NCBI RefSeq assembly: GCF_002251755.1
Contig: NZ_NOXT01000121.1
Span: forward strand, 62,001 to 126,000
Direction: 5' to 3'
DNA: 64,000 nucleotides
Origin: Sandarakinorhabdus cyanobacteriorum
Lineage (GTDB): Bacteria > Pseudomonadota > Alphaproteobacteria > Sphingomonadales > Sphingomonadaceae
Part shown: positions 8,461 to 17,203 of the stretch, piece by piece
Layout of the letters: each line of letters begins with the position of its first letter
Numbering within the stretch: the first letter of the stretch is position 1
Translations under genes and position numbers: made by a program
Notes under the pieces: generated by a model
Told to the model about the DNA's origin: nothing
Seen by the model: the letters and a program-made list of their open reading frames with translations, nothing else
The model's database searches: none

Positions 8461-8966
8461 GGCAATATCTGTCGGCCATGCTGTGGATCACCGCCACCAC
8501 GGTGATCGTTGCGTCTGCCCAGGTGATCACCACCCGCGCCGCAGCCGAACGCCGCGCCGTCACCCGGCTGAACATCGAACTGGTGGACAACAAGGTGCGC
8601 ATCCGCGAGCTGGAAGCCGAACTGCGCACGCGCGCCGGCATGCCCGAGATGCAGCGCTGGAACGACGCCGTGTTCCAGATGGCCGCCCCGCAAAGCAGCC
8701 AGATCCTGCGATCGCCTGTGCAGCTGGCGGCCTTTGCCGCACGCCCGGATGCCCTGCCCCGCGTGCAGATGGCAGTGGCGGTCGATGCGCCGCTGGCGGC
8801 CGAAGCACCGCCGCCGGCCAGCGAAACCGGCGCACGCGTGCTGAAGACGAGCTTTGGCACCCCGGCAGCGACGGCCAGCGCCGCCCTGCCGGCGGTGACC
8901 CAGCCCGAACCCCTGCCACAGGAAGAAGCGGCTGATCCGACCGAGCCGCACGAAGGGGCCAACTGA
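8457..8966 (+). CDS. ftsL: FtsL-like cell division protein
   Basis: A 169-residue bitopic membrane protein in the standard ftsL position. It has a short cytoplasmic N-terminus, one membrane segment ([20 protein letters not shown]), and a charged coiled-coil stretch (residues about 32-62, [23 protein letters not shown]) as expected for the FtsQLB complex. The C-terminal 90 residues are Ala/Pro-rich and probably disordered, longer than in Escherichia coli FtsL. Identity rests mainly on position and topology. It is coupled on both sides: ATGA with rsmH and TGATG with ftsI. Confidence 0.85.
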
Positions 8967-10705
8967 TGGCAACCATCCCCGGCAATGATCCGTTGATCCG
9001 CGCCATTCCGGCCGCCGCCGGAGAGCGGGTGACGGCGCGCAGCCAGGCCCGGCAACGCCTGGCCTTCATCATCATGCTGTTTCCGGTGCTGGCGCTGGTC
9101 ATCCTCGTGCGGCTCATTGATCTGGCCGTGGTGCAGGGCATTCCCAAAAGCAGCGGCCCGACGATCAGCGCGGCGCCGCCGCGTGGCGACATATTGGATC
9201 GCAACGGCGTCGAACTGGCCCGCACCTTTGAAGCCTATGCCATCACCGTGATGCCGCGCCGGCTGACGTCGGACCCCGAGGTGCTGGCAACCCGGTTGGC
9301 CACCATCCTGCCCGAGCGCACCCGCGAAGAGATCCTGGCTGATCTCACCTCGGGCAAGAGCTTCCGCTATCTGGCCCGCCGCGTGCTGCCCGGCCAGGCC
9401 CGCCGCATCAACGAACTGGGCGAACCCGCCATCGAACTGGCCCGCGAGGCCGAACGGCTCTACCCCAATTACGCGCTTGCCGCCCAGGCACTGGGCTACA
9501 CCGACGACAAGGGCCATGGCCTCATTGGCGTGGAAAAGGCCTTTGATGCCGATCTTGCCGATCCGGTGAAACGCGCCACCCCGCTGATGCTCAGCCTCGA
9601 CGTGCGGGTCCAGCAGGCGATGAGCCACGAGCTGGCTGCGCTGGTGGCCGATCAGAACGCCAAGGGTGCTGCCGGCGTGGTGATGGACGTGAACAGCGGC
9701 GAAGTGCTGGCCATGGTCAGCCTGCCGGATTTCAACCCCAATGTGCCGGGCAAGCGCGCCGATGGCACCGTGTACACCACCGCCAATGATGATGGCAGCC
9801 GCTTCAACCGGGTGACGCTGGGCGGCTATGAGCTGGGTTCCACCTTCAAGGCCTTCACCATTGCCACCGCGCTGGAAACCGGCGTGTTGACCAACCTGCA
9901 GAAGCAATATGACGCCACCCGCCCGCTGGAAGTGGCCGGTTTCCGCATCCGTGACGATCACGCCAAGAACCGCTGGCTCACCGTGCCGGAAATCTTCATC
10001 TATTCCAGCAACATCGGCACTGCCCGCATGGCGCTGGAGGTGGGCCGCGAGCGCCAGCGCGAATATCTCGACAAGCTGGGCTTCCTGAAACCGGCCGAGT
10101 TTGAGCTGAAGGAAAAGACCAAGCCGCAATTCCCCCCACTCTCAAACTGGGGCCAGTTGGCGACAATGACCATCAGCTATGGCCATGGCCTCACCGTGTC
10201 GCCGCTGCATCTCGCCAATGGCTATGCCACGCTGGTCAATGGCGGCTTTTACCGGCCGCCCACCATCCTGAAGCGCGACGCCGCTGCCGTGCCGGCCGGC
10301 ACCCGCGTCTTTTCGGAAAAGACCAGCGCCGAAATGCGCCGCCTGCTGCGTCTGGTGGTGACCAATGGCACCGGCCGCAAGGCCGATGTTCCCGGCTATC
10401 GCGTCGGCGGCAAGACCGGCACCGCCGAAAAGATCGAAGGCGGCCGCTATGTCCGCGGCCAGAATGTGGTGAACTTCGCCGCCGTCTTCCCGGTGGACGC
10501 GCCGCGCTATGTCGTGGTGGCGATGATCGACGATCCGCGCGGCAGCAAGGCGACCTATGGCTTCCGCACCGCCGGCATGGTGGTGGCCCCGGCAATCCAC
10601 CGCATCATCGAACGCATCGCCCCGCCGCTCGGCGTGCTGCCCGATTACAACCGCGACGTGAATCTGGCCGGGCTGCTGCCCGGCGGTGCCGACGTGAAGG
10701 AATAA
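8966..10705 (+). CDS. ftsI: Septal peptidoglycan transpeptidase FtsI (PBP3)
   Basis: A class B penicillin-binding protein that cross-links septal peptidoglycan as partner of FtsW. The 579 residues contain one N-terminal membrane anchor (FIIMLFPVLALVILVRLIDLA), a pedestal domain beginning PPRGDILDRNGVELA, and a transpeptidase domain. The catalytic serine is Ser292 in GSTFK. The SxN motif is Ser347-x-Asn349 (IYSSNIGT) and the KTG motif starts at Lys483 (GGKTGTAEK). All active-site motifs are intact. Its start overlaps the ftsL stop, and murE follows after 3 bases. Confidence 0.96.
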   Translation: MATIPGNDPLIRAIPAAAGERVTARSQARQRLAFIIMLFPVLALVILVRLIDLAVVQGIPKSSGPTISAAPPRGDILDRNGVELARTFEAYAITVMPRRLTSDPEVLATRLATILPERTREEILADLTSGKSFRYLARRVLPGQARRINELGEPAIELAREAERLYPNYALAAQALGYTDDKGHGLIGVEKAFDADLADPVKRATPLMLSLDVRVQQAMSHELAALVADQNAKGAAGVVMDVNSGEVLAMVSLPDFNPNVPGKRADGTVYTTANDDGSRFNRVTLGGYELGSTFKAFTIATALETGVLTNLQKQYDATRPLEVAGFRIRDDHAKNRWLTVPEIFIYSSNIGTARMALEVGRERQREYLDKLGFLKPAEFELKEKTKPQFPPLSNWGQLATMTISYGHGLTVSPLHLANGYATLVNGGFYRPPTILKRDAAAVPAGTRVFSEKTSAEMRRLLRLVVTNGTGRKADVPGYRVGGKTGTAEKIEGGRYVRGQNVVNFAAVFPVDAPRYVVVAMIDDPRGSKATYGFRTAGMVVAPAIHRIIERIAPPLGVLPDYNRDVNLAGLLPGGADVKE

Positions 10706-10708
10706 GCC

Positions 10709-12142
10709 GTGCGGCTGGGGGCGCTCATTCCAGGTGGTGGCGATGCGGTGGTCACTGGCTTTGCGCTGGACAACCGCAAGGTTGCCCCCGGCACCGTGTT
10801 CGGGGCCTTCCAGGGCGCCCGGGTGAATGGCGAGGATTATATTCCGGCTGCCATCGCCGCCGGGGCCGTGGCCGTGGTTGCCCGCCCTGAAGCGGTGGTG
10901 GACGGCGCGCTGCACATTGCCGATGCCAATCCGCGCCGTGCCTTTGCCGCCCTGGCCGCCCGCTTCTTCGCGCCCTTCCCGGCGACAACGGTGGCCATCA
11001 CCGGCACCAACGGCAAGACCAGCACCGCCGAACTGACTCGCCAGCTGTGGCAACTCGCCGGCCAGCGTTCGGCCAGCATCGGCACGCTGGGCGTGACCAC
11101 CGGTTACGAGCGTGTTGCCCCGGCCGATGGCACTGGCGGCCTGACGACGCCCGATGTCGTCACCTTCCTCGCCACCATGGCCGGCCTGGCGCGCGAAGGC
11201 ATCAGCCATGCCGCCTTCGAAGCCTCCAGCCACGGGCTTGACCAGTATCGCACCGAAGGCCTGGCCGTGCGGGCCGCGGCCTTCACCAACCTGTCGCGCG
11301 ATCACCTCGATTACCATGGCACAATGGAGGCATATTTCACCGCGAAAACCCGGCTGATCACCGAGGTGTTGGACGCCAATGGCAGCGCGGTGATCTGGGC
11401 CGACGATGGTGACTGGTCGGCCCGGATGATCGCGCTGGCCCGCGCCCGTGGCCTCGCTCTGCTCACCGTTGGCACCGCCGGCGAGACGCTGAAGCTGATC
11501 AGCCGCACCCCAACCGCGCTGGGGCAGGACCTGGTGGTGGAAGCGGCCGGCAGCCGCCACAAGATCGCCCTGCCGCTGATCGGCGCCTATCAGGCGGCCA
11601 ATGCCCTGGTGGCGGCCGGCCTGGTGATTGCCACCGGCGGCGCGGTTGCGGCCACGCTTGCCGCCCTTGCCCGCGTGTCGGGCGTGCGCGGCCGGCTGGA
11701 GCGCGCCGTCATCACCCGCAGCGGCGCCGCCGTCTATGTCGATTATGCCCACACGCCCGATGCCATCGTCGCGGCCTGCGCGGCGCTGCGCCCGCACGTG
11801 ACGGGCAAGCTGATCATCGTCATCGGCGCCGGCGGCGACCGCGACGCCGGCAAGCGCCCGTTGATGGGAGAAGCCGCCACCGCCCACGCCGATCAGGTTT
11901 TCATCACCGATGACAATCCGCGCAGCGAGGATCCGGCCGCCATCCGCGCTGCCGTCGCCGCCGGTGCGCCGGGCGCCAGCATCGTGCCCGGCCGGCGCGA
12001 GGCGATTGCCGCCGCCATGGCCACGGCCGGGGCGGGCGATATCGTGCTCATCGCGGGCAAGGGCCATGAGCAAGGCCAGATCATCGCCGGCCGCACCCTG
12101 CCGTTCGATGATGTCGCCGTTGCGCGGGAGTGCGCGGCATGA
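10709..12142 (+). CDS. murE: UDP-MurNAc-L-Ala-D-Glu:meso-diaminopimelate ligase MurE
   Basis: The cytoplasmic Mur ligase that adds the third residue of the peptidoglycan stem peptide. The start is a GTG three bases after ftsI. The 477 residues include the ATP P-loop GTNGKTSTAEL near residue 97, a ligase middle domain (TNLSRDHLDYHGTMEAYF, with the lysine likely carbamylated in the family just after), and DNPRSEDP near residue 405. The DNPR motif selects meso-diaminopimelate rather than lysine. The stop overlaps murF as ATGA. Confidence 0.96.
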   Translation: MRLGALIPGGGDAVVTGFALDNRKVAPGTVFGAFQGARVNGEDYIPAAIAAGAVAVVARPEAVVDGALHIADANPRRAFAALAARFFAPFPATTVAITGTNGKTSTAELTRQLWQLAGQRSASIGTLGVTTGYERVAPADGTGGLTTPDVVTFLATMAGLAREGISHAAFEASSHGLDQYRTEGLAVRAAAFTNLSRDHLDYHGTMEAYFTAKTRLITEVLDANGSAVIWADDGDWSARMIALARARGLALLTVGTAGETLKLISRTPTALGQDLVVEAAGSRHKIALPLIGAYQAANALVAAGLVIATGGAVAATLAALARVSGVRGRLERAVITRSGAAVYVDYAHTPDAIVAACAALRPHVTGKLIIVIGAGGDRDAGKRPLMGEAATAHADQVFITDDNPRSEDPAAIRAAVAAGAPGASIVPGRREAIAAAMATAGAGDIVLIAGKGHEQGQIIAGRTLPFDDVAVARECAA

Positions 12143-13524
12143 GCCTGTGGACCAGCGCCGAGATCGCCGCCGCCTGCGCCGGCACCGCCATCGGTGAGTT
12201 CGCCGCCACCGGCGTCACCTTCGACAGCCGCGAGGTGGAGCCCGGCGACCTGTTCATCGCGCTGAAGGGCGAGGCGACCGACGGGCATCGCTATCTCGGC
12301 ATGGCGCGCGAACGCGGCGCGGCCGGCCTGCTGGTCAGCGAAGCCGTTGACGGCCCTGCCGTGCGCGTGGCGGACACGATGGCCGCCTTGAACGCGCTGG
12401 GCGGCGCCGCGCGCGACCGCAGCAACGCGCTTCGCATTGGCGTGACCGGCAGTGTTGGCAAGACCGGCGTGAAGGAGGCGCTGAAGGCGGCGCTCACCCG
12501 TTTTGCGCCTGATGCCGTGCACGCCTCGGTCAAGAGCTACAACAACCACACCGGCGTGCCGCTGTCCCTCGCACGTATGCCGGCGGCCAGCCGCTTTGGC
12601 GTGTTCGAAATGGGCATGAACCACAGCGGCGAACTGGCCGCCCTCACCCAGCTGGTGCGCCCGCACATCGCCATCGTCACCTGGGTGGCATCGGCCCACC
12701 GCGAATTCTTCGCCACCGAGGCCGACATTGCCCGCGCCAAGGCCGAAATCTTTGCCGGCCTGCCGGCTGGCGGCACTGCCATCATCCCGCACGATAATCC
12801 CCATGCCGGCCTGCTGGCCGATGCGGCGGTGGCAGCGGGGGCCCGCGTGGTCCGCTTCGGGCAGACGGCCGGGGCCGACGTGATGGCCGAACAGGTGGCC
12901 CTCCACCCCGATTGCTCGTGCGTGACCGCCCGCATTGGGGATGACCGCCTGACCTTCAAGATCGGCATGGCTGGCCGCCATTGGGTGAACAACGCGCTGG
13001 CCGTGCTGGCCGGAGTGCAGGCAGCCGGCGGCGATCTCGCGCTGGCCGGGCTGGCGCTGGCCGAACTGAACGGCCTGCCGGGCCGGGGCCGGCGGCTGCG
13101 GGTGCCGGCCGGGAACGGCCAGGCCATCGTGATCGACGAAGCCTACAACGCCAATCCTGCCAGCATGGCTGCCAGCCTTGCCGTGTTGCGCGACGTGGTG
13201 CCGGCCCGCGCCGGCCGCCGCATCGCGTTGTTGGGCAGCATGAAGGAACTGGGCACGCTGTCGGCAGAATTCCACGCCGGCATCGCGCCGCACATCATCG
13301 ATGCGCAGGTGGCGCTGGCCGTGCTGGTCGGCGCCGAAATGAAGCCATTGGCCGAGGCGCTGGGCCGCCAGACCGACGTGCGCCATGTCGCCACGGCCGA
13401 TGCGGCGATGGCCGAGATCGGCCGCAGCCTTGCGGCCGACGACGTGCTGCTGGCCAAGGGATCCAATTCAATCGGGCTGGGCCGCGTGGTCGCCGCGCTG
13501 GCCGCCGGGGAGCATATGGCATGA
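12139..13524 (+). CDS. murF: UDP-MurNAc-tripeptide:D-Ala-D-Ala ligase MurF
   Basis: The Mur ligase that adds D-alanyl-D-alanine to the stem peptide. The ATG at 12139 ([15 protein letters not shown]) lies in an ATGA overlap with murE; an upstream in-frame alternative start at 12130 is not needed. The 461 residues show the N-terminal substrate domain ([17 protein letters not shown]), the ATP loop [10 protein letters not shown] near residue 113, [12 protein letters not shown], and the C-terminal [11 protein letters not shown] and LLGSMKELG motifs. It is coupled to mraY by another ATGA overlap. Confidence 0.96.
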
Positions 13525-14594
13525 TCAAGCTGCTGGCTGATCTGGCGGGCTATGAAGGCCTGTTCAACCTGTTCCGCTATATCAGCTTCCGCGCCATCGC
13601 GGCACTGATGACCAGCCTGGCCATCGCACTGCTGATCGGCCCGCGCTTCATCGACATGCTGCGCATGAAGCAGGGCAAGGGCCAGCCGATCCGGGAAGAC
13701 GGGCCGGAATGGCACCTGCTCACCAAGCGCGGCACCCCAACAATGGGCGGCCTGCTCATCCTGATCGGCTTCACGATTTCCACCCTGCTGTGGATGGACA
13801 TCACCAACGGCTTCGTGTGGGCGGCCCTCGCCGTCACCCTTGGTTTCGGCGCCATCGGCTTCATGGACGATTATGACAAGGTGACGAAGCAGAGCCACAA
13901 GGGCGTTTCCGGCAAGGTCCGCCTTTGCCTCGAGTTCCTGATCGCCGGCCTTGCCTGCACCTATATCGCCACCCACACCGGCTTCAAACTCTACCTGCCG
14001 CTGGTCAAGGATTATGGACTTGATCTGGGCTGGTTCTACATCGGCTTTGCCGCCTTCATCGTGACCGGGTTTGGCAATGCGGTGAACCTGACCGACGGGC
14101 TGGATGGCCTTGCCACCATGCCGGTGATCATCGCCGCCGGGGCCTTTGCCATCATCGCCTATCTGGTAGGGAATATCCGCTTTTCCGATTATCTCGGCAT
14201 CCATCATGTCGCCGGTTCGGGCGAACTGGCGGTGTTCTGCGCCGCGCTGATCGGTGCCTGTCTGGGCTTCCTGTGGTTCAACGCGCCGCCGGCCCAGGTG
14301 TTCATGGGCGACACCGGCAGCCTTGCGCTCGGCGGCGCGCTCGGCACCATCGCGGTCATCACCAATCACGAGCTGGTGCTGCTGGTGATCGGCGGCCTGT
14401 TCGTGCTGGAAACCCTGTCCGTCATCATCCAGGTCGTCAGCTTCAAGACCACCGGCCGCCGCGTGTTCCGCATGGCCCCGCTGCACCATCATTATGAAAA
14501 GAAAGGCTGGAAAGAATCCACCGTGGTGATCCGCTTCTGGATCATCGCCATCCTGCTCGCCCTTGCGGGCCTGGCCACGCTGAAACTGCGGTGA
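13521..14594 (+). CDS. mraY: Phospho-N-acetylmuramoyl-pentapeptide-transferase MraY
   Basis: An integral membrane enzyme that transfers phospho-MurNAc-pentapeptide to undecaprenyl phosphate, giving lipid I. The 357 residues form about ten membrane segments. Diagnostic motifs are [11 protein letters not shown], the Asp-rich [38 protein letters not shown] and the metal-site histidines in [13 protein letters not shown]. The start is the ATG in the murF overlap. The stop TGA at 14592-14594 overlaps the ATG of a 35-codon ORF that bridges to murD. Confidence 0.97.
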
Positions 14595-14701
14595 TGGCCA
14601 TGCTCGTACGCGGCGCTCCACCCCTCATCCTCCAAAACCCCACACCGCGCGCGCCGCGGCGTATCAGTGGCGTGCGGGGGGGTGGAGCGTCGCAGCCTTG
14701 A
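14594..14701 (+). CDS. Candidate 35-codon coupling ORF between mraY and murD
   Basis: An open frame starting with the ATG in the TGATG overlap at the mraY stop (first residues [13 protein letters not shown]) and ending at a TGA (14699-14701) that overlaps the murD TTG start as TTGA. It fills the only gap in the mraY-murD junction exactly. The predicted peptide is Pro/Arg/Gly-rich with no recognisable domain, so the act of translation may matter more than the product. Its coding region spans both arms of the hairpin that would hide the murD ribosome site. No protein-level evidence exists here. Confidence 0.5.
   Translation: MAMLVRGAPPLILQNPTPRAPRRISGVRGGGASQP
14611..14692 (+). promoter_or_regulatory. 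Hairpin that would sequester the murD Shine-Dalgarno site
   Basis: The left arm 14611-14624 (CGGCGCTCCACCCC) pairs with the right arm 14679-14692 (GGGGTGGAGCGTCG) at 14 positions, one of them G-U, around a 54-base loop that can itself fold. The right arm contains the GGTGGAG purine stretch that is the only plausible ribosome site for the murD TTG at 14698. Confidence 0.5.
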
Positions 14702-15978
14702 TCACCGCACCCGCCTTTGCCGCAAAACGCTGGGGTGTGCTGGGCCTCGCCCGCACCGGCCGGGCGGTTGCGGCTGCCATCACGGCGTCGGGCGGGGATG
14801 TCTGGGCCTGGGATGACGGCGAGGCGGCCCGCACCGCCTTTGATGGCACGTTGGTCGATCTTGTGCATGCCGACCTGTCGGGCCTGGCTGGCATCATCGT
14901 CTCGCCCGGCGTGCCACACAGCGCCCCGATCTTCGCCGCTGCCGCCAGGGCCGGCGTGCCGGTGATGGGTGACACCGAATTGTTCGCGCGCGCCCTGCCG
15001 CACCTGCCGCCCACACGGGTGGTGGGCATCACCGGCACCAACGGCAAATCAACCACCACCGCACTGCTGCACCATCTGCTCGTCACCGCCGGCATCCCCG
15101 CTGCGATGGGCGGCAACATCGGCCTGCCGATCCTGGCGCAGGATCCGTTGCCAGCCGGCGGCGTCTGGGTGCTGGAACTGTCGAGCTATCAGCTGGACAT
15201 CACCCACAGCCTCGCCTGCGATGTGGCCATCCTCACCAACATCACGCCCGATCATCTCGAACGGCACGGCACCATGGCCGGCTATGCCGCAGCCAAGGCG
15301 CGGCTCTTTGCCATGCAGACACCCGGCGCCACCGCCATCGTCGGCCGCGCGGCCCAGGCGCATTATCATGTTGCCACGGGCCCAGCCGGCCTGATCACGA
15401 TCGAGGACGTCGCCCTGCCCGGCGCCCAGGCCGACTGGCCCTCGCTGCAGGGGCCGCACAATCTCGAAAACGCCCGCGCCGCCGTCGCCGCCGCGCGGCG
15501 GCTGGGGCTGGACGATGCCACCATCGCGCGCGGGCTCGCCAGCTATCAGGCCCTCGCCCATCGCATGGAACCGGTCGGCGAAAAGCGCGGCCTGTTGTGG
15601 GTGAACGACAGCAAGGCGACCAACCCCGATTCCACCGCCCCAGCGCTCGCGGCCTACCAACGCATCCACTGGATTGCCGGCGGCCGGCCCAAGCTCGACA
15701 CCAATGGCCAGGCCGATCTGTCGGCGGTGCTGCCCAATCTGGGCCAGGTGGTAGATGCATGGCTGATCGGCGAGGCGGCGCCGCAATTCGCCGCGCAGTT
15801 GCGCCCGCACTTGCCGGTCACCGAAGCCGGCACGCTTGATGCCGCCATCACGGGCATCCTGGCCACGGCGCAGACCGGAGATGTCGTGCTGTTCAGCCCG
15901 GCTGCGGCCAGCTTTGATCAATATCGCGATTTCGAACAGCGCGGCGCGGCCTTCCGCGAGGCCGTGGCAGCCTTGTGA
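14698..15978 (+). CDS. murD: UDP-MurNAc-L-alanine:D-glutamate ligase MurD
   Basis: The Mur ligase that adds D-glutamate to UDP-MurNAc-L-alanine. The 426 residues start at a TTG giving the family N-terminus (ITAPAFAAKRWGVLGLARTGRAV); no in-frame ATG lies nearby. The ATP loop is GTNGKSTTTALL near residue 116. A ligase core (LELSSYQLD, TNITPDHLERHGTM) follows, then NDSKATNPDSTAPAL and a C-terminal LFSPAAASFDQY. It lies 103 bases after mraY, and the gap is bridged by a small ORF. ftsW follows after 13 bases with a GAGGGGG ribosome site. Confidence 0.95.
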   Translation: MITAPAFAAKRWGVLGLARTGRAVAAAITASGGDVWAWDDGEAARTAFDGTLVDLVHADLSGLAGIIVSPGVPHSAPIFAAAARAGVPVMGDTELFARALPHLPPTRVVGITGTNGKSTTTALLHHLLVTAGIPAAMGGNIGLPILAQDPLPAGGVWVLELSSYQLDITHSLACDVAILTNITPDHLERHGTMAGYAAAKARLFAMQTPGATAIVGRAAQAHYHVATGPAGLITIEDVALPGAQADWPSLQGPHNLENARAAVAAARRLGLDDATIARGLASYQALAHRMEPVGEKRGLLWVNDSKATNPDSTAPALAAYQRIHWIAGGRPKLDTNGQADLSAVLPNLGQVVDAWLIGEAAPQFAAQLRPHLPVTEAGTLDAAITGILATAQTGDVVLFSPAAASFDQYRDFEQRGAAFREAVAAL

Positions 15979-15991
15979 GGGGGATGGACTG

Positions 15992-17203
15992 ATGGGCCTT
16001 GCAGCACGCCGCCTCGACAAGCGCAGCTATCCCGCCGGCGCTGGCGCCGCCTTCTCGCGCGGGGACCGCAGCCGCTTCGGCCGCTGGTTCTGGACGATCG
16101 ACAAGACCCTGCTGCTGCTGATCCTGGCGCTGATCGCGGCCGGCATCACTGCGGTGGCCGCTGCTTCACCGGCGGCGGCCCGGCGGCTTTCGGGCGGCAA
16201 TTTCCGGATGGACGATCTTTATTTCCTCTACCGCCAACTGATGTGGGTGGCGCTGGGGCTGCCGGTCATGCTCGGCACCTCGATGCTCAGCATCCGCAAC
16301 CTGAAACGGCTGGCGGTGGTGGGCACATTGATCTGTCTGCTCTCCCTCATCCTGGTGCCGTTCATCGGCGGCGGCGCCAACGGCGCGGCACGCTGGATCC
16401 AGCTGCCGGGCTTCCAGTTCCAGCCATCGGAATTCTTCAAGCCCTGCTTCATCATCGCCACCGCCTGGCTGCTCAGCCTGAAGCTGGAGGACGGCAGCCT
16501 GCCCACGATGCAGATCAGCGCGGCGGTGTTGGCCATGGCGTTGATCTGCCTGATCGCCCAGCCCGATGTCGGCCAATCGGCACTGATCTCGGTGGTGTGG
16601 CTGTCCCAGGCCACGCTGGCCGGCCTGTCGCTCACCATCATCGGCGCACTGGCTGTCACCGGCGTGATCGGGTTGGTTGCCGCCTATTTCACCCTCGATC
16701 ACTTCGCCGCCCGCATCGACAAGTTCATCACCGGTTCCGGCGACACGTTCCAGATCGACAAGGCGCTGGATTGTTTCCGCGCCGGTGGCCTGATGGGCAC
16801 CGGGCCGGGCGAAGGCCGCATGAAGTTCCGCCTGCCCGAAGCCCAGACCGATTATATCTTCAGCGTGCTCGGCGAGGAGTTTGGCCTGATTGCCTGCGCC
16901 CTGCTTGCTGGGCTGTTCCTGGCGCTGGTGGTGCGTGCCCTGCTGCTGGCGATGGAGGAGGATGATCCCTTCATCTTCCTCGCCACATCGGGTCTGGCCA
17001 TCCAGTTCGGCCTGCAGGCCACCATCAACATGATGGTCAATCTGGCGCTGCTGCCCTCCAAGGGCATGACCCTGCCCTTCATCAGCCATGGCGGTTCCAG
17101 CTTCCTCGCCATCTCGCTGGGCGCCGGCATGCTGCTCGCCCTCACCCGCTGCAATCCCTTCCTGAAGGGGCGGCCCTGGGCCAAGGGCGCTCTGGCCGCA
17201 TGA
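15992..17203 (+). CDS. ftsW: SEDS-family peptidoglycan glycosyltransferase FtsW
   Basis: An integral membrane polymerase that builds septal glycan strands with FtsI. The ATG at 15992 begins MGLAARRLDKRSY, placing a 40-residue cytoplasmic tail before the first membrane segment (LLLLILALIAAGITAVAAA). The 403 residues show SEDS landmarks: the ANGAARWIQLPGFQFQPSE loop, AQPDVGQSALI, the LMGTGPGEGRMKFRLPEAQT extracellular loop with its catalytic-region acidic residues, and LPFISHGGSS. The longer open frame upstream overlaps murD and is rejected. The stop overlaps murG as ATGA. Confidence 0.95.
   Translation: MGLAARRLDKRSYPAGAGAAFSRGDRSRFGRWFWTIDKTLLLLILALIAAGITAVAAASPAAARRLSGGNFRMDDLYFLYRQLMWVALGLPVMLGTSMLSIRNLKRLAVVGTLICLLSLILVPFIGGGANGAARWIQLPGFQFQPSEFFKPCFIIATAWLLSLKLEDGSLPTMQISAAVLAMALICLIAQPDVGQSALISVVWLSQATLAGLSLTIIGALAVTGVIGLVAAYFTLDHFAARIDKFITGSGDTFQIDKALDCFRAGGLMGTGPGEGRMKFRLPEAQTDYIFSVLGEEFGLIACALLAGLFLALVVRALLLAMEEDDPFIFLATSGLAIQFGLQATINMMVNLALLPSKGMTLPFISHGGSSFLAISLGAGMLLALTRCNPFLKGRPWAKGALAA

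Follow-up and report, generated by a model that had tools for sequence, protein, structure and literature searches.

Different inserts within the mraY-murD overlap of sphingomonads carry an open frame that leads to murD

In the dcw cluster of Sandarakinorhabdus cyanobacteriorum, mraY and murD are separated by 103 nt that sit inside what is usually a 4-nt overlap of the two genes and that are spanned exactly by a short open reading frame. Eight types of insert were found at this junction, all with the length and the open frame that would bring a ribosome restarted at the mraY stop to the murD start. As judged from sequence comparison, the 103-nt stretch is probably a repeat-like insertion that is tolerated because its translation preserves the coupling of mraY and murD. 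The window (the whole stretch of DNA that was analysed, 64,000 nt of contig NZ_NOXT01000121.1, positions 62,001 to 126,000) contains the dcw cluster, with Pfam support for murF, mraY, murD, and ftsW. Feature coordinates are provided in Table 1.

Table 1. Features at the mraY-murD junction and the adjoining murD-ftsW junction (positions are those of the window)
Feature	Position	Strand	Basis or comment
mraY	13521..14594	+	Pfam PF00953, MraY_sig1; ends in GTGA; stop TGA 14592-14594
GTGA, upstream copy of the mraY-murD overlap	14591..14594	+	mraY stop together with a start for the bridging frame
Bridging mini-ORF, 35 codons and stop	14594..14701	+	ORF and junction reading; ATG 14594-14596, stop TGA 14699-14701
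103-nt insert	14595..14697	+	Missing from the -4-nt junctions of near sisters
Outer stem, 5' arm, 17 bp	14610..14626	+	Fold and covariation
Inner stem, 5' arm, 10 bp	14648..14657	+	Fold and covariation
Inner stem, 3' arm	14667..14676	+	Fold and covariation
Outer stem, 3' arm	14677..14693	+	Contains the greater part of the best Shine-Dalgarno-like match upstream of murD
TTGA, downstream copy of the overlap	14698..14701	+	Mini-ORF stop and murD start
murD	14698..15978	+	Pfam PF08245 and PF02875; start TTG 14698-14700
5-codon frame bridging the murD-ftsW gap	15975..15992	+	GTGA ... TGATG; stop 15990-15992

The original prediction of a 35-codon frame with overlaps at both ends was confirmed, coordinates included. 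The mraY stop is overlapped by the ATG of the mini-ORF (TGATG) and the mini-ORF stop overlaps the murD start (TTGA), so that both ends have the overlapping stop and start codons of a translationally coupled pair by arrangement. Alternative in-frame starts are a GTG at 14591, giving GTGA, and a second ATG at 14600, the equivalent of which is present in all seven genomes with this insert type. The assignment of murD also follows from relatives, most of which match from residue 1 or 2 onward. MurD is 78-80% identical to that of the nearest named isolates (S. rubra, S. limnophila, and Sandarakinorhabdus sp. AAP62) and up to 85% identical to that of metagenome bins. The bridged gap had also been described as the only one in the dcw chain, which is wrong: murD and ftsW are separated by 13 nt (murD stop at 15978, next ATG at 15992; 15975-15994 reads GTGAGGGGGATGGACTGATG), and another 3 nt lie between the two ORFs that precede murF, presumably ftsI and murE (8966-10705 and 10709-12142). 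Taken alone, the bridge in the window is weak evidence and is not beyond chance; a single gap would be bridged in about 23% of cases, or about 1 in 4 (one third for the length class multiplied by an openness of 0.70, which is the share of shuffles of the window insert with the frame still open). A simple scan of the spacer gave no terminator or promoter pattern. A known RNA family was rejected, given that no Rfam match in the window reached the gathering score.

Junctions were compared across 209 loci; the mraY end could be placed in 208 of them and both ends in 206 (L177 and L196 yielded no start for murD). Identical junctions were merged, leaving 185 distinct ones. This sample is non-random and enriched for gaps, many stretches having been chosen for a suspected gap or an incomplete match (20 stretches of one batch, about half of another, and several of a third), and it comes almost wholly from one bacterial family, with a few members from its order. 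The 4-nt overlap (GTGA or ATGA) is the usual arrangement and was present at 129 of the 185 junctions. The junctions of L221-L224, which lie outside these counts, are also -4 nt. mraY and murD were on one contig in 146 of 149 genomes of the family and at -4 by coordinates in 106 of those 146, a list that was not used for counts because a murD match that starts only at residue 21 or beyond makes the gap look too large. In genomes G002 and G005, murD lies at a contig end.

Six relatives (L005, L009, L010, L011, L012, and L013) carry a diverged homologous insert, which makes seven genomes of the Sandarakinorhabdus group together with the window (L001); no insert interrupts the overlap in the near sisters L006, L007, and L008. 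S. limnophila (L039) also belongs to this insert type. Empty sites, e.g., those of L007 and L166, read GTGATCACC. A covariance model matched 7 of 24 genomes of the genus, once each and at the mraY-murD junction (E ≤ 0.01); it was built from those same seven inserts, and the search therefore informs only on the absence of further copies. BLAST likewise found one copy and no second in the window's own genome, and a dispersed repeat in that genome was rejected on this ground. On a 14-row DNA tree, L006 (-4 nt) groups with L001 and L005 (support 99/99), presence of the window-type insert needs three changes, and a single clade of insert-bearers is rejected (p-AU 0.005, in a test run after an earlier tree had been inspected). 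This distribution can be read as one gain followed by clean losses; alternatively, homologous inserts may have been gained more than once, or transferred. The position of L006 is most easily explained by at least one clean loss, so the insert appears to be dispensable. It is also likely to be old, and we infer a mobile origin for what is now a single-copy sequence.

Seven further insert types of 91-232 nt occupy the same junction (97 nt in L016, 232 nt in L020, 103 nt in L023, 91 nt in L051, 100 nt in L115, 121 nt in L114 and L164, and 175 nt in L168), bringing the number of types to eight. When 11 inserts were compared by BLAST, similarity over the whole length was seen only within the window type. 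Different types share short pieces (L016 and L164, 35 nt; L012 and L168 as well as L051 and L115, 17-18 nt), and the longest match of four window-type inserts to the other types was 17 nt. Copy number in the own genome was checked for the window type and for the 121-nt insert of genome G109, which has 83 matches there (both strands, itself included); at least one insert type is a dispersed REP. The sister pair L164 (121-nt insert) and L166 (-4 nt) represents a filled and an empty site, with TGA on both sides. Inserts of at least 90 nt need nine changes on a 133-row protein tree (FastTree; L115 represented by 31% of columns).

Several observations on the site itself were made alongside. In several relatives, e.g., L007 and L166, the empty site is a 10-bp palindrome (GGTGATCACC), and the junction is a possible insertion hot spot, with eight types here and no gap of at least 50 nt at three neighbouring dcw junctions. 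In 11 sphingomonad loci (L116, L121-L130), murD contains an insert of its own, in frame and following about codon 45. Several of these inserts look REP-like (e.g., CCCTCCCCTTCAGGGGA), and palindromic repeats seem to be tolerated inside the MurD protein too.

A common rule of length and frame was found among inserts of at least 90 nt. At 13 of 14 distinct junctions, covering all eight types, the length is 1 mod 3 and an open frame runs from the overlap with the mraY stop to the overlap with the murD start; this is the only length class that brings a ribosome restarted at the overlap to murD. In the exception, L011, mraY stops with TAG, the insert is 102 nt, and the overlapping start is lost; the bridge is maintained only from an internal ATG 4 nt farther on. 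The chance of all eight types being 1 mod 3 is (1/3)^8 = 1.5e-4 (1e-5 with openness), a value that is partly post hoc, five of the eight types having prompted the rule, which was written down once the lengths of two of the remaining three were known. For the three types met after the rule was noticed, the probability is 0.017. A high GC content in itself often leaves an insert open (45-88% of shuffles).

Over all gapped junctions, 29 of 30 with a start over the mraY stop close on murD, compared with 15 of 26 without such a start (Fisher p 0.0006, which overstates the evidence because rows are related); when only small gaps are counted, the figures are 16 of 17 and 15 of 25. Shared ancestry plays a part, since closure on murD is also seen at 15 of the 26 junctions that have no start over the mraY stop. 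Exceptions without a bridge are L132 (TGA stop, 12-nt gap) and L108 (TAA stop, 36 nt). Separately, the sister rows L089 and L113 have homologous 10-nt gaps with a GTGA micro-ORF in L113 and TAA in L089, as if the overlap start of L089 had been lost later. Comparison of the junctions supports, at the level of sequence, the predicted passage of ribosomes through the mini-ORF on their way from mraY to murD. Gapped relatives lacking a bridging frame, which had been named as evidence against this passage, occur in part of the set: at 12 of the 56 gapped junctions, no frame from the stop overlap reaches the murD start, and in 11 of these 12, mraY ends in TAA or TAG.

As had been predicted, genomes of the window type have retained the frame, and their peptides have drifted apart. 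Insert differences are even over codon positions (7, 5, and 6 between L001 and L005; 11, 11, and 11 between L001 and L010) in a comparison of six of the seven genomes, L011 being left out. Across the deeper splits, peptide identity is 41-49% (also without L011) and insert divergence is 0.31-0.35, compared with 0.23-0.32 at mraY third positions. In close pairs, the insert is below mraY third positions (0.17 vs. 0.26 for L001 and L005; 0.01-0.05 vs. 0.08-0.22 among L009, L012, and L013). The mini-ORF peptide had no Pfam match. A conserved peptide was rejected for lack of both a codon-position bias and a Pfam match, and the codon-level purifying selection of a functional small protein was not seen in the six of seven window-type genomes. 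Because the peptide drifts without codon-position bias, frame and length are kept rather than the peptide. The suggestion of a dedicated coupling peptide is unsupported: near sisters without the insert keep the 4-nt overlap, and elsewhere other inserts form the same kind of bridge.

Compared with 200 shuffles, the window insert has the better fold (z -3.3). Its two stems comprise 27 pairs (17 + 10) that are paired in 100% of cells across seven sequences, which are related, four of them closely. Seven stem pairs are changed on both sides (4 of 500 shuffles reach seven), and the covariation score is above all 500 shuffles and slid controls; in one of the five covariation measures, further pair types were not above shuffles (18 vs. 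19.6). The best Shine-Dalgarno-like match before murD is GGGGGGGU, 14 nt from the start, and the corresponding stretch in relatives is GGGGAGGA. Mean predicted pairing from 22 to 4 nt before murD is 0.94 (92-97% across the window type), and the hairpin with its compensatory changes is predicted to cover the murD ribosome-binding region. Shine-Dalgarno-like stretches before murD scored -8.9 to -10.9 in the window type, -5.7 to -11.4 in L016, L051, L115, L164, and L168, and a weak -3.2 in L020; none was found in the L023 insert, and the four -4-nt relatives that were scored had no good one (-0.2 to -1.5). Given that such a stretch precedes murD in the window type and five other types, independent murD starts are possible.

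In the explanation that we favor, a short palindromic element would have inserted long ago into the GTGA overlap, leaving an overlap copy at each end. The upstream copy would still provide the mraY end together with a start codon, and the downstream copy the murD start together with a stop codon. A ribosome finishing mraY would restart at once and read the insert as a throw-away peptide, opening the hairpin over the murD ribosome-binding region as it translates, and would then stop on the murD start and restart there. Coupling is reported to be nearly abolished once the genes lie about 20 nt apart (both species) or, for the E. coli pairs, 38 nt (PMC10666635, in the part available), so a bare 103-nt spacer would be expected to be harmful. 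Inserts that break the relay would cut MurD output, and mostly frame-keeping ones would survive. A tentative extension, which may well prove too strong, is that, in this bacterial family, different palindromic repeats repeatedly enter the overlap and survive only as translated bridges, and that the one in the window's group has been domesticated as a hairpin, hiding the murD binding site and making MurD strictly dependent on MraY translation.

Alternatively, the hairpin could be the selected feature, acting as a translational or mRNA-stability switch over the murD binding region, with the open frame mostly a by-product. The fully kept pairs, the seven two-sided changes, the 92-97% predicted pairing before murD, and the even codon positions of the insert would all be consistent with this; however, other insert sequences at the same spot obey the same frame rule, near sisters manage without an insert, and the further pair types stay at 18 against 19.6 in shuffles. 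Template-switch repair can also keep palindromes matched without selection. We consider such a switch unlikely as the main explanation. An untranslated spacer that is open by chance, with murD started independently from its own binding site, would fit the expectation for one spacer and the Shine-Dalgarno-like stretches of the window and its relatives, but the frame rule holds for all eight insert types, pairing is predicted over the binding region, and L023 is without such a stretch, which leaves this explanation decidedly improbable. A dedicated regulatory mini-gene, encoding a functional peptide or a stalling leader, would draw on the length of 103 nt and the start over the mraY stop in six of seven window-type genomes (five of seven as TGATG), on the internal ATG in all seven, and on an insert that changes less than mraY third positions among L009, L012, and L013. 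Against it stand the even codon-position differences, the low peptide identity across deeper splits, the lack of a Pfam match, and the absence of the insert in close sisters, and we give this possibility very little credence.

Neighbouring junctions were used as controls. No gap of at least 50 nt was found at murF-mraY, murD-ftsW, or ftsW-murG (144, 148, and 141 loci; 129, 122, and 113 distinct), and these junctions are therefore uninformative on large inserts. Real small gaps after an overlapping start were bridged exactly in two of two cases at murD-ftsW (13 cases were flagged, 11 of them plain -4 junctions whose start was misplaced by the rule used) and closed exactly in two of three at ftsW-murG (four flagged, one of them plain -4). 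At murF-mraY, none of six gapped junctions with an overlapping start closes on the mraY start by overlap, and in four of the six the frame stops directly before that start. The overlap rule fails in this control, which slightly lowers our confidence in the relay from mraY to murD.

MIRU elements (Supply et al. 1997, as described in the accessible part of PMC12548453) are short elements at a start codon whose ORF is -4-coupled to the next gene and whose insertion does little harm. The window insert resembles them by arrangement, being placed at a start codon with an ORF at -4 to murD. It differs in that it is not repeated in its genome (one copy by BLAST and, by the covariance model, in each of seven genomes), its host is not mycobacterial, it has a large bulged hairpin, and eight insert types occur at one essential junction. 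It would work like a MIRU and is not classed as one because genomic repetition was not found. Palindromic hairpin architecture is common to the window insert and REP/BIME elements, and the G109 insert at the same junction is dispersed with 83 matches, whereas the window type has one copy per genome and not a high copy number. The GTGA and TGATG overlaps at the two ends are of the types found in -4/-1 termination-reinitiation coupling (PMC6728339 and PMC10666635, in the portions available), although here two couplings stand in series around a spacer ORF. Enterobacterial RU elements, in the available portion of PMC2759123, are comparable as small mobile repeats with an open frame; they carry ORFs and lie within annotated genes, whereas the window frame bridges two genes. 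A literature search, with most subscription journals outside its reach, found MIRUs and no description of the present case. The earlier view of the mini-ORF as a new regulatory element is unsupported, with MIRUs as a published precedent. The principle is already described; the element, the host, the locus, and the convergent frame test are new.

The junction provides a natural experiment on an open question, namely, whether ribosomes in ordinary operons start again at an overlapping start codon after terminating. Bridging frames of this kind easily escape annotation, and the MIRU principle would be extended to the Alphaproteobacteria. Different inserts in one essential junction keep the sole length class and frame that lead to murD, which suggests that ribosomes must be handed from mraY to murD without a break.
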